DNA from: a virus
DNA length: 36,656 bases
IMG/VR virus record: IMGVR_UViG_3300032820_000042
Coordinates: 1 to 36,656 of that record
Direction: 5' to 3' (one strand)
Shown here: piece by piece, positions 1,527 through 6,827 of the stretch
Position numbering within the stretch: position 1 is the stretch's first letter
Layout of the letters: the number at the start of each line of letters is the position of its first letter
Made by a program: the position numbers and the translations under genes
The notes under the pieces: model-generated
Seen by the model: only the letters and a program-made list of their open reading frames with translations
Databases searched by the model: none
What the model was told of the DNA's origin: nothing

Positions 1527-1577
1527 TGTTACAGTATGTTAAGCACAGTTGACATAAGCAATACACAGTGCTATACT
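1527..1577 (+). promoter_or_regulatory. Early sigma70 promoter P1 with upstream box
   Basis: -35 TTGACA at 1549-1554, 17-nt spacer, -10 TATACT at 1572-1577 with an extended -10 (TG, then C, before TATACT). The box TGTTACA-gta-TGTTAAG at 1527-1543 is centred 14 nt before the first base of the -35. It is followed by the 45-aa ORF at 1615. Confidence 0.88.
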
Positions 1578-1614
1578 ATGTGAGTAGTTAAGGGAATCAA
1601 CCTTGAATCAATCC

Positions 1615-1752
1615 ATGCTTGAGCGTCAATCATTGATCGGAATGCTCAGATCATTTGTTAAGTTTCCAGCTAAACCATTTGGTCATCGTGCACATGATAC
1701 AATGAGGACTACAACCAGTTGGACACCACGTCCACTGAAAGGTATCAGGTAA
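1615..1752 (+). CDS. Small basic early protein, 45 aa
   Basis: Begins MLERQSLIGMLRSF and ends RPLKGIR. Its ATG lies about 30 nt after the predicted transcription start of P1, and its stop is 3 nt before a TTCG hairpin, so it is the only possible coding content of this promoter-hairpin unit. The product is strongly basic, with many Arg, His and Lys residues. Small basic early phage proteins often bind host proteins or nucleic acid, but no family is recognised. Confidence 0.5.
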   Translation: MLERQSLIGMLRSFVKFPAKPFGHRAHDTMRTTTSWTPRPLKGIR

Positions 1753-1755
1753 TGT

Positions 1756-1771
1756 GAGGGCTTCGGCCCTT
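1756..1771 (+). terminator. TTCG hairpin, possible terminator or processing site
   Basis: Stem GAGGGC/GCCCTT around TTCG directly after the 45-aa ORF. No T-run follows (TACTTCC), so an RNA-stabilising or processing role is as likely as termination. Confidence 0.5.
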
Positions 1772-1792
1772 ACTTCCTCACCTTTGCATCAT

Positions 1793-1843
1793 TATTACAG
1801 TATGTTACGTGTGCTTGACTTTTGAGGTGATGTGTGCTATGAT
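1793..1843 (+). promoter_or_regulatory. Early sigma70 promoter P2 with upstream box
   Basis: -35 TTGACT at 1815-1820, 17-nt spacer, -10 TATGAT at 1838-1843, extended -10 TG present. The box TATTACA-gta-TGTTACG at 1793-1809 has the same centre-to--35 distance as in P1 and P3. Confidence 0.86.
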
Positions 1844-1886
1844 ACGTGTATCAGATGAGAGACCACTCACTGATCACCACAGCTAA

Positions 1887-1937
1887 TGTTACAGCATGTA
1901 ACAAAGGCTTGACAAATCCAGTCAAGTGTGCTATGGT
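1887..1937 (+). promoter_or_regulatory. Early sigma70 promoter P3 with perfect palindromic box
   Basis: -35 TTGACA at 1909-1914, 17-nt spacer, -10 TATGGT at 1932-1937, extended -10 TG present. The box TGTTACA-gca-TGTAACA at 1887-1903 is a perfect 7+3+7 dyad. The promoter faces the 72-aa gene at 1981. Confidence 0.86.
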
Positions 1938-1980: not shown

Positions 1981-2199
1981 ATGCGTAACATTCTCATTCA
2001 CTGCAAACCTTCATTACTTGATCAAGTAAAAGAAATGGGTTTGTATTATACTCACTCTAATAATGGTGAGGTTGATGTAATTGTCCCTGACATTGATACA
2101 CCTGATACTATTGATGGTGTTTACATTGACCCTGATAAATACTTATGTGAGTTCTATGAACTTGATTATGATCAAGTTAATTGTGTTGAGTTAGCGTGA
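1981..2199 (+). CDS. Early protein, 72 aa, acidic
   Basis: Starts MRNILIHCKPSLLDQVKEMG, about 38 nt after the predicted start of P3. The frame is open further upstream, but a longer start would span promoter P3 and is unlikely. The C-terminal half is rich in Asp (DVIVPDIDTPDTID), giving a strongly acidic protein. Its 3' coding end holds an 8-bp hairpin (AACTTGAT/ATCAAGTT, about 2159-2178). No family recognised. Confidence 0.62.
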   Translation: MRNILIHCKPSLLDQVKEMGLYYTHSNNGEVDVIVPDIDTPDTIDGVYIDPDKYLCEFYELDYDQVNCVELA

Positions 2200-2688: not shown

Positions 2689-2859
2689 ATGTCTGTTATT
2701 AGACTCGACTCTTATTCTGAGTACGGACACAATGATCGAGGTGAATACCTTGAGCAATTGATGGACGAACTCGATACATCACGTGATAGATGTGATGAGT
2801 ATTGGAATGAAAGTCTACTCGAAAACTATCTACGTTCTTCATCTAATCTTGACTATTGA
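2689..2859 (+). CDS. Hypothetical acidic early protein, 56 aa
   Basis: The frame extends upstream into the tRNA gene, so the first ATG clear of it (MSVIRLDSYSEYGHNDRGEY) is chosen. The product is helical and acidic (LEQLMDELDTSRDRCDEYW). It ends 2 nt before the ardA start, suggesting translational coupling. No family recognised; it may be a partner or small relative of early host-takeover proteins. Confidence 0.5.
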   Translation: MSVIRLDSYSEYGHNDRGEYLEQLMDELDTSRDRCDEYWNESLLENYLRSSSNLDY

Positions 2860-2861
2860 TT

Positions 2862-3212
2862 ATGACTGTTACTTATTCTGACGTTATGTCACCTGAACTA
2901 GAGCAACTTCGTGATGCTATTGGTTCAACTGGTATGATTGATACCATGCCTGATGAGTTCTATCAAGACCTTATTGATTATGGTATTGAGACATCAGAAC
3001 AGTTTGAAGATGCCTATCAAGGTTCATATTCAAGCGGTGCTGAATTCTGTGAAACAATGGTCAACGATTGTGGTGATCTAGAACAGATCCCTAATTTCAT
3101 CACCAATCATATCAATTGGGATGACATGTGGGAATGTGAACTACGTCATGATTACTTCATGATAGATGGTAAACGACCTGGAGATAAACGCTTCTTCAGT
3201 AAATACTTTTGA
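2862..3212 (+). CDS. ardA: ArdA-type antirestriction protein
   Basis: ArdA proteins are acidic mimics of B-form DNA that occupy type I restriction-modification enzymes. The C-terminal half (residues about 48-110) shows the family hallmark: FEDAYQGSYSS, then EFCETMVNDCGDLEQIP, then an INWDDMW block and a DYF near the end. The protein is short (116 aa against roughly 165 for plasmid ArdA) and strongly acidic. An alternative TTG two codons upstream is less likely than this ATG. The early position matches the T7 strategy, in which the unrelated DNA mimic Ocr is the first early gene. Confidence 0.83.
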   Translation: MTVTYSDVMSPELEQLRDAIGSTGMIDTMPDEFYQDLIDYGIETSEQFEDAYQGSYSSGAEFCETMVNDCGDLEQIPNFITNHINWDDMWECELRHDYFMIDGKRPGDKRFFSKYF

Positions 3213-4311: not shown

Positions 4312-4447
4312 AGCATGGTATCGTGCATATGAGGAGTTAATCTTTCAACTTGAAGATCACACTCATAAAGACGAGATATTAGCACTATGTGAAGAACAAC
4401 TACGTGATGATCAGGAGGGCTATGCAACCAACAGCGTCACAGATTGA
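4286..4447 (+). CDS. Hypothetical protein, 53-54 aa, overlapping the RNA polymerase start
   Basis: Two adjacent ATGs (4286, 4289) begin MTKLKKTKAWYRAYEELI. The product is a charged, likely helical protein. It overlaps the previous gene at its start and the RNA polymerase gene by 26 nt at its end, so it may couple polymerase translation. It contains ATCACACTCATAAAG (4356-4370). Confidence 0.55.
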   Translation: MMTKLKKTKAWYRAYEELIFQLEDHTHKDEILALCEEQLRDDQEGYATNSVTD

Positions 4448-6827
4448 CGAACAGGTTAAGTTAGAACGTGATCAAATAGCGCAGGGACTTAAGAGACTAC
4501 ATGATGATACACGTAGGTCAGAGGAGCGTAGCTATGCTTCTGCTTGTGTGTATGGTATAGCATCTATTGATATGTTATTACCTTTAGTAGTTAAACGCAT
4601 AGAAGATACTAATAACCGTATCAAAGAGGGAAAGAATGGTGTAGCATTTAAAGAGATCCAGCAATACATATCTGGACTTGAGCCATTAGCTGCTGCTGCT
4701 ATTACCTGTAAACTTACCTTTGATAAGGTGTTTGGTTATAGAGACAAGAGTAACTTATTAGCTAATGTATTAGATAGTATAGGTCAAGCAGTTGAAGATG
4801 AATGTCACATGAGGCATTATGAAGAACATGCACCTGGCTTACTTAATGTATTGAAGAAGAACTATTGGCATAAAGCATGTGGTACACAACAGAAGATCAC
4901 AGTGATATCCACACTCATGAATCGCTGTGAGGTTAAGAAGTGGAAAGCATGGGGTAGAACTAATAGAATCAGGTTAGGTGGTTGGTTGCTGGACTGTTTA
5001 CTTGAGGCAAGTGGCTGGTTTGAGAAAGAATGTAGGAGAGAAGGTAAGAGGACAGTTAATTATGTTGTACCTACTGCTGAGTTCTTAAAGATCAAAGATG
5101 AAGTCATGGCTAATGCTGAATTATTCAGCCCTTTAACATGGCCTATGCTCATACCACCTAACAAATGGTCTAACCATGAACGTGGTGGCTACCTATTAAA
5201 TGAAGTGATGCGTGGTCATGAATTGATAAGGCATGGCGATCACTTACGTTTACAGGGAGAAACACCACTGGCTTTTCTCAACCATATACAAAAGGTTGCT
5301 TATACTCTCAATCCATTTATTGTGGATGTGGCTGAAACATTGCAGAAGAGAGGTATTAGTGTTGGAAAGTTTCTTCCTATAGTAGATCATCCATTACCTC
5401 CTAAACCAGTAGATATAGCAGACAATGAGGATAGTCGTATGGCTTACCGTAGAGCTGCTGCAGAGGTTAGGAATAAGAATGCACAAGAGTTTAAACGCTC
5501 GTGTAGAACTAGGATGACGATGGGGGCAGTTAGTAGATTTAAGGACGTAGATAGATTCTATATTCCTTGGTCGTTTGATTATAGAGGTAGAGCCTACCCA
5601 ATCCCTGCCTTCCTCACACCTCAGGATACAGACTTTGGAAAAAGTTTACTTAAGTTTGCAGATGATGCATTCTTAACTGATAGAACTGAGGAGTGGTTAG
5701 CATTTCAAGTAGCTACTACCTATGGTAAGGATAAAGATACTTGGAAGGACAGACAGAAGTGGGTTAAGAATAACCTCACACTCATCAAGAACGTTGCATT
5801 AGATCCTATAGGAAATAGACCTGAATGGGAGAATGCAGAGGAACCCTGGCAGTTCTTAGCAGCTTGTGATGAGTACTTTCATTGTATCTTAGTACGTGAT
5901 AGACCTCATACTTCATTAATGGTTGCAGTCGATGCTACTTGTAGTGGTCTACAAATACTAGCTGGATTAGCTAGGGATAAGAGTACTGCTAAGCTAGTCA
6001 ATGTATTACCTAGTGATGAACCACAAGATGCTTATGCTGTCGTAGCTAAAACTGCTAAACCTAACTGTCCTAAAGAGTATCAATACTTTATGGATAGAAA
6101 GGTAGTTAAACGTACTGTTATGACAGTCCCATATAATGCTAAACCTTTCTCTAATAGATCCTACATCAGGGACGCATTGAAGGAGAAAGGAATAGAAATA
6201 GATAAGGACAACTTATCTTTAATTGTCAAGGCAGTTAGAGGTGCTATGAACACAGTTGTTCCTGGCCCTATGGCTGTCATGAAATGGATAGAGACTGAGG
6301 TTGCTAAAGCTATAGCAAGGGGTCAACATGGTTGGGTTAAATATCCAACTAAAGAAGATCCAGATAGGAGACTATGGAAACCAATTGAGCAAGAGTTTGA
6401 ATGGGTTACACCTTCAGGGTTTGTAGTACGTCAAAAGATGATGAAAAAGGATTGGGAAATATTGGATCTTAAATTACTAGGTCGCTGTCAAATCAAGGTA
6501 GCGACTGATGATACAGATGAAGTAGATACTAATAGACATAAAGCTGCTACTGCACCTAATCTAATCCATAGTCTAGATGCTAGCCTACTCCACTTATCCA
6601 TCATTAAATTCAATGCGCCCATCGCCCTTATTCATGATAGCGTGTTGTCTCGTGCTACAGACATGCCTGAGTTATCCACACTCATCAGACAGACTTACAT
6701 GCAGCTTTTTGCTGACCACGATTATCTTACCGATTTTGCCAAACAGATCGGTGCTGAAACAAAACCCCCAATTATTGGAGACTTAGACGCGTCTTCAGTA
6801 ATTGATTCCGATTATTTTTTCTGTTAA
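4422..6827 (+). CDS. Single-subunit phage RNA polymerase (T7 gp1-like)
   Basis: Transcribes the middle and late phage genes from phage-specific promoters. The catalytic residues align with T7: Asp504 in AVDATCSGLQ (T7 D537), Lys563 and Tyr571 in KRTVMTVPYN (T7 K631 and Y639, same 8-residue spacing) and Asp739 in LIHDSVL (T7 D812). The C-terminus DSDYFFC corresponds to the T7 DFAFA end. It has 801 residues against 883 in T7. ATG 4422 is chosen because AGGAGG lies just upstream; a GTG 33 nt earlier lacks one. An HxAxAPNLIHSLDAS block stands where the specificity and fingers region is expected. Confidence 0.97.
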   Translation: MQPTASQIDEQVKLERDQIAQGLKRLHDDTRRSEERSYASACVYGIASIDMLLPLVVKRIEDTNNRIKEGKNGVAFKEIQQYISGLEPLAAAAITCKLTFDKVFGYRDKSNLLANVLDSIGQAVEDECHMRHYEEHAPGLLNVLKKNYWHKACGTQQKITVISTLMNRCEVKKWKAWGRTNRIRLGGWLLDCLLEASGWFEKECRREGKRTVNYVVPTAEFLKIKDEVMANAELFSPLTWPMLIPPNKWSNHERGGYLLNEVMRGHELIRHGDHLRLQGETPLAFLNHIQKVAYTLNPFIVDVAETLQKRGISVGKFLPIVDHPLPPKPVDIADNEDSRMAYRRAAAEVRNKNAQEFKRSCRTRMTMGAVSRFKDVDRFYIPWSFDYRGRAYPIPAFLTPQDTDFGKSLLKFADDAFLTDRTEEWLAFQVATTYGKDKDTWKDRQKWVKNNLTLIKNVALDPIGNRPEWENAEEPWQFLAACDEYFHCILVRDRPHTSLMVAVDATCSGLQILAGLARDKSTAKLVNVLPSDEPQDAYAVVAKTAKPNCPKEYQYFMDRKVVKRTVMTVPYNAKPFSNRSYIRDALKEKGIEIDKDNLSLIVKAVRGAMNTVVPGPMAVMKWIETEVAKAIARGQHGWVKYPTKEDPDRRLWKPIEQEFEWVTPSGFVVRQKMMKKDWEILDLKLLGRCQIKVATDDTDEVDTNRHKAATAPNLIHSLDASLLHLSIIKFNAPIALIHDSVLSRATDMPELSTLIRQTYMQLFADHDYLTDFAKQIGAETKPPIIGDLDASSVIDSDYFFC

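Follow-up and report, generated by a model that had tools for sequence, protein, structure and literature searches.

An inverted-repeat box at helically phased positions upstream of presumed early promoters of cyanophages, a candidate activator site

A short inverted-repeat box, placed at set distances upstream of host-type promoters, is a conserved feature of cyanophage promoters and not a product of chance. It was analysed here in a 36.7-kb virus record, a T7-like cyanophage contig whose whole length is referred to below as the window, and in which three tandem promoters (P1, P2 and P3) each carry one copy. An initial annotation had proposed that a regulator is bound at all three promoters. 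A putative regulator site at these places is well supported, given the conservation of both box and spacing within a cyanopodovirus clade and their presence in T4-like cyanophages as well. On balance, and with somewhat better than even confidence, we take the box to be bound by an activator that acts as a DNA-binding dimer, is most probably encoded by the host and has been recruited to cyanophage early promoters.

The window encodes a T7-like RNA polymerase (4389-6827), for which 49 uncultured relatives were found with 56-91% identity (best segment), and which is 65-68% identical to the enzymes of isolated cyanopodoviruses, among them S-RIP1, S-B28 and NATL1A-7. Other products include ThyX, T7-type endonuclease I, a gp2.5-like protein, primase/helicase, PolA and ribonucleotide reductase. 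P1-P3 are located at the head of a block of small genes upstream of the polymerase gene, where T7-like cyanophages usually carry their early genes, and from this position we infer that the block behind them consists of early genes. It also contains a tRNA-Asp gene (anticodon GTC, 2582-2655) and encodes a 118-aa protein (2856-3212) that matches ArdA antirestriction proteins. Just upstream of P1, a direct repeat (ATGGGGTGTCACACTATCGTTATA / ATGTAGTATCACACTATCGTTATA) occurs at 1357-1380 and 1477-1500, 120 bp apart, and a related contig, L094, shows a stretch similar to it. The features of the promoter region are as follows.

1528..1542, + strand: P1 box GTTACAGTATGTTAA, an imperfect dyad, read from sequence; the orthologous box is retained in the related contigs L001 and L094
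1549..1577, + strand: P1 core promoter, TTGACA (1549-1554)-N17-TATACT with extended -10 TGC, read from sequence
1615..1752, + strand: 45-codon ORF between P1 and P2, presumed P1 product, read from sequence
1794..1808, + strand: P2 box ATTACAGTATGTTAC, an imperfect dyad, read from sequence; TGTAAC at the same place in L001 and L094
1815..1843, + strand: P2 core promoter, TTGACT (1815-1820)-N17-TATGAT with extended -10 TGC, read from sequence
1888..1902, + strand: P3 box GTTACAGCATGTAAC, a perfect dyad (7-3-7 form at 1887-1903), read from sequence; retained in L001 and L094
1909..1937, + strand: P3 core promoter, TTGACA (1909-1914)-N17-TATGGT with extended -10 TGC, read from sequence
1981..2199, + strand: gene for a 72-aa acidic protein, the first gene after P3

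The geometry given in the initial annotation holds at all three promoters: each combines TTGAC(A/T), a 17-nt spacer and a TGC extended -10, and the distance to the -35 is 21 nt from the start of each box and 14 nt from its centre. The perfect dyad claimed for P3 is likewise present and is found there alone, the right arm being TGTTA in the imperfect boxes of P1 and P2. When both strands (36.6 kb) were searched, the exact box RTTACA-N3-TGTWAM (RTTACANNNTGTWAM) occurred at three places only, P1-P3, as did the exact promoter TTGACW-N14-TGC-TATNNT (TTGACW-N14-TGCTATNNT), and boxes and promoters pair one to one. A plain promoter scan of the window, taken alone, did not rise above chance. The three copies constitute one 47-nt repeat family, 62-70% alike; they may be old duplicates, but what they have retained is chiefly box, hexamers and spacings.

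Conservation beyond the window was evident at several levels. In L001 and L094, all three promoters are retained, boxes included, and homologs of the 45-codon ORF were found in the window's own clade only. Among 129 promoters from early regions of other cyanopodoviruses, boxes with at least 9 of 12 dyad matches numbered 7 at offset 21 versus 9 in total over 74 other offsets, and an earlier version of this test based on direct-repeat scoring gave the same peak. The consensus of 37 box-promoter sites from 23 loci, a set with a few members that are weak or come from outside the cyanopodoviruses (e.g., L229 and L232), reads CATT(A/G)TTACA-GAR-TGTAAC(G/A)-N5-TTGAC(A/T)-N17-TATAAT, and most sites have TG in front of the -10. 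The initial annotation had named a lack of dyad conservation at the early promoters of related phages as part of the grounds for giving up its proposal; such conservation was looked for and found. Scanning for the 7-3-7 dyad in its perfect form recovered one relative and one GC-rich phage.

Among 64 cyanopodoviruses with an RNA polymerase and an early region of at least 2.5 kb, 12 carry it, all within one 29-member clade (SH-aLRT 95), and it was found in none of the 35 outside that clade. The same clade holds NATL1A-7, which has the box, and P-SSP7 and P-SSP2, which have none; the box label needs five changes on the polymerase tree, and all tested Synechococcus isolates of other clades also lack it. 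In NATL1A-7, isolated on Prochlorococcus NATL1A, the arrangement is ATTACAGTATGTAACAAACGC-TTGTGT-N17-TATAAT. T4-like cyanophages with the box at offset 21 comprise L469, L480, the isolate B23 and B23-like contigs. A similar sequence, GTTACA-N3-TGTAAT, lies 21 nt before a TTGAC promoter in relatives of the roseophage CRP-6 (L215, L219, L220, L223, L229, L233 and L257), where these sites stand upstream of terminase or portal genes; these sites possibly belong to the same system, although CRP-6 itself has no box in the stretch read.

Evidence on the mode of action comes from spacing. When 2.9 million viral contigs were scanned three times with the same box and promoter and only the spacing changed, offsets of 21, 26 and 31 nt gave 56, 17 and 31 contigs, of which 18, 0 and 14, respectively, were recognised as cyanopodoviruses. 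In a spacing-blind scan with the box alone (ATTACAGARTGTAACG), all 17 cyanopodovirus sites stood exactly 21 nt (3 sites) or 31 nt (14 sites) before TTGNNN-N17-TAnnnT, about 15 of them independent since the L438 and L439 sites are near-identical. The permitted spacings in cyanopodoviruses thus differ by a whole helical turn, as expected of a helix-phased activator site, and full-turn steps with none at the half turn point to a protein in contact with RNA polymerase on a single side of the DNA. Several 31-nt promoters have a degenerate -35 (TTGCGT, TTGCAT, TTGTGC or TTGCGC) along with a strong extended -10, and weak -35 hexamers of this kind are expected where an activator assists. The initial annotation had allowed for either an activator or a repressor; mainly because of the helical phasing, the former is now favoured over the latter.

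According to the activator model, a dimer would occupy the box, centred about 49 bases (about 59 at the spacing one helical turn longer) before the inferred transcription start, would contact the host sigma-70-type RNA polymerase from one helix face, and would by this contact boost initiation at extended -10 promoters. For the window, the model places it at P1-P3, in front of the gene block that leads up to the phage RNA polymerase gene. Class I activators such as CRP provide a parallel, as their dyads are confined to a few places that lie upstream of a sigma-70 promoter and are spaced by a helical turn; however, the CRP sequence is unrelated, and the phage centre lies near -49 or -59 rather than at -41.5 or -61.5. 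T7 offers another parallel, with tandem host-type promoters heading the block before the phage RNA polymerase gene, whereas each window promoter carries an additional activator-like box upstream, a box of a kind not known to be needed at T7 early promoters. Three observations weaken the model: such sites are absent from many host chromosomes and the search for a host regulon was negative, the core elements of P1-P3 are near consensus and may need no help, and related phages (P-SSP7 and the tested Synechococcus isolates of other clades) manage without the box.

The symmetry of the box bears on the identity of its ligand. TGTWACA is almost its own mirror image, and it is chiefly a single right-arm base that distinguishes a direct from an inverted repeat. 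When scans accepted A and T alike, TGTAA outnumbered TGTTA about fivefold in this arm of cyanopodovirus sites, and the left arm was nearly always TTACA; the dyad is favoured for these two reasons, in agreement with the palindrome first described. T is tolerated in the right arm, as in P2 of L083 and in P1 and P2 of the window. Similarity-weighted base counts make the A/T ratio in the right arm look even as a result of down-weighting near-consensus sites, and the W-tolerant scans were relied on instead.

Comparison with known regulator sites yielded no strict match. The initial statement that the box matches neither NtcA nor Crp was borne out over 34 sites: none matched GTA-N8-TAC exactly (26 had two mismatches), and 32 differed from TGTGA-N6-TCACA at four or five positions. 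The cyanobacterial LexA consensus, RGTAC-N3-DGTWC, was missed by at least three positions in all 34. By-eye comparison of the box consensus revealed no match to the sites of Rre1 (GTNCGGK) or PedR (RWWTRGGYNNYY) (PMC13421787). By half-site and position, the best-known candidate is the response regulator RpaB, whose HLR1 site is KTTACAWW-N2-KTTACAWW and which activates from about -45 to -66 (PMC13421787), yet the HLR1 consensus fails at several box positions. As a strict match, an RpaB/HLR1 direct repeat is rejected, the right arm of the box being mostly TGTAA and its first base R rather than K. A strict HLR1-plus-promoter scan of genome contigs gave 10 scattered matches, one of them in a cyanobacterial MAG (L099) and without a psbA-family gene.

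A special case of the activator model would make the bound protein host RpaB, or its paralogue RpaA, acting on an HLR1 variant, with early transcription following light/redox. The two kinds of site share TTACA half-sites recurring every 10 bp upstream of the -35, and with spans of about -56 to -42 (21 nt) and -66 to -52 (31 nt) from the inferred starts, the box falls into the RpaB activating range at both phage positions (PMC13421787). HLR1 also appears to work in Prochlorococcus-type hosts, judging from perfect repeats (KTTACA-N4-KTTACA) observed just before hli-like genes in five Prochlorococcus-type genomes (loci L183-L185 and L189-L191). On the other hand, the phage box is inverted in most sites, with TGTAA where a direct repeat needs GTTACA, begins with R and mostly has G in place of the HLR1 W; of 34 sites, just 2 differ from the KTTACA-N4-KTTACA core by at most one mismatch, 13 by two and 19 by three or four. 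We consider this special case quite unlikely. Binding by a phage-encoded early protein, either an autogenous activator or a repressor that shuts off the early promoters, is unlikely. Many window genes have no known function, and the 72-aa family was found in box-bearing phages only (L226, L239, L248, L253, L256, L266, L267, L109 and NATL1A-7, L060), but it went undetected in several box-bearing loci, and the acidic protein has a confidently predicted ferredoxin-like fold (pLDDT 94) with no HTH and no solved structural relative. Moreover, no DNA-binding family was recognised in the genes scanned, and T7-like and T4-like phages would need a gene in common.

That the box is instead an operator at which a host or phage repressor controls the early promoters seems very unlikely: near-consensus cores such as those of P1-P3 need little help and a dyad near the -35 could block polymerase, but the box lies upstream of the -35 and not over it, and the strict 21- or 31-nt phasing, together with the weak -35s at several 31-nt promoters, would be unexpected of a simple operator. 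It is scarcely credible that the box is a functionless passenger of promoter duplication and common descent. Although P1-P3 form one repeat family and box-bearing phages cluster on the polymerase tree, box and spacing have been retained while spacers and flanks diverged, two spacings exist one helical turn apart, and T4-like phages have the box too.

For the activator model, a host factor is favoured because two unrelated cyanophage families share box and spacing and because no transcription factor or other DNA-binding family was recognised among the window proteins scanned, which were part of the gene set. The search of host genomes for the dyad upstream of promoters, as proposed in the initial annotation, was carried out and disclosed no regulon in 61 Cyanobiaceae genomes: RTTACANNNTGTAAY had 1 site versus 16 for its reversed control, TTACANNNTGTAA had 39 versus 51, and the box-promoter composite was absent from the host genomes searched. 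In a complete 1.717-Mb Prochlorococcus-type genome (37% GC), phage-type matches were fewer than in the control, with no intergenic excess of the 3-nt spacing. These negative results may be compatible with a regulator that has few or weak chromosomal sites. One lead emerged in seven low-GC genomes, where TTTACA-N3-TGTAAA (CTTACA in one genome) precedes pcb-like antenna genes (L286, L287, L294, L295, L296, L299 and L309) and is followed in most of them by a AGTCTTGTGA-like stretch. This dyad resembles the phage box in its TTACA-N3-TGTAA core and its intergenic position ahead of a light-harvesting gene; it differs in its T/A outer bases, in having no matching promoter geometry established and in occurring at seven orthologous places only, which probably represent one event. 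The psaD upstream regions of picocyanobacteria, also considered, contain another conserved element and not the phage box: at L194, L195, L201, L204 and other loci, a sequence close to AATGTTGACGGGTGTGAAG stands ahead of a GTGCTA motif.

Cyanophages are usually assumed simply to use host sigma-70 promoters for their early transcription; activators upstream of such promoters, and the use of host regulators by phages, are already known. More tentatively, unrelated T7-like and T4-like cyanophages might have converged on one host regulator, corresponding to no known cyanobacterial motif, as a gatekeeper of early transcription that ties the start of infection to host physiology, perhaps light/redox. 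A conserved activator box in helical phase would supply an input so far missing from the usual picture, by which host state could set the pace of infection. The box provides a short DNA bait, e.g., CATTATTACAGAGTGTAACGA, for fishing out the bound protein, and NATL1A-7 on Prochlorococcus NATL1A is a cultured phage-host pair in which the idea can be tested. A literature search, with most subscription journals outside its scope, retrieved no report of an RTTACA-N3-TGTWAM-type box at cyanophage promoters and no paper linking HLR1 or RpaB to them.

The early promoters of boxless cyanopodoviruses share another element, roughly GTNCACNACCNN, directly before the -35, with sites in S-RIP1 (L058 at 3833 and 3969), S-CBP4 (L028 at 423), L034 (591) and L043 (7015). 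It is possibly a second activator-type site.
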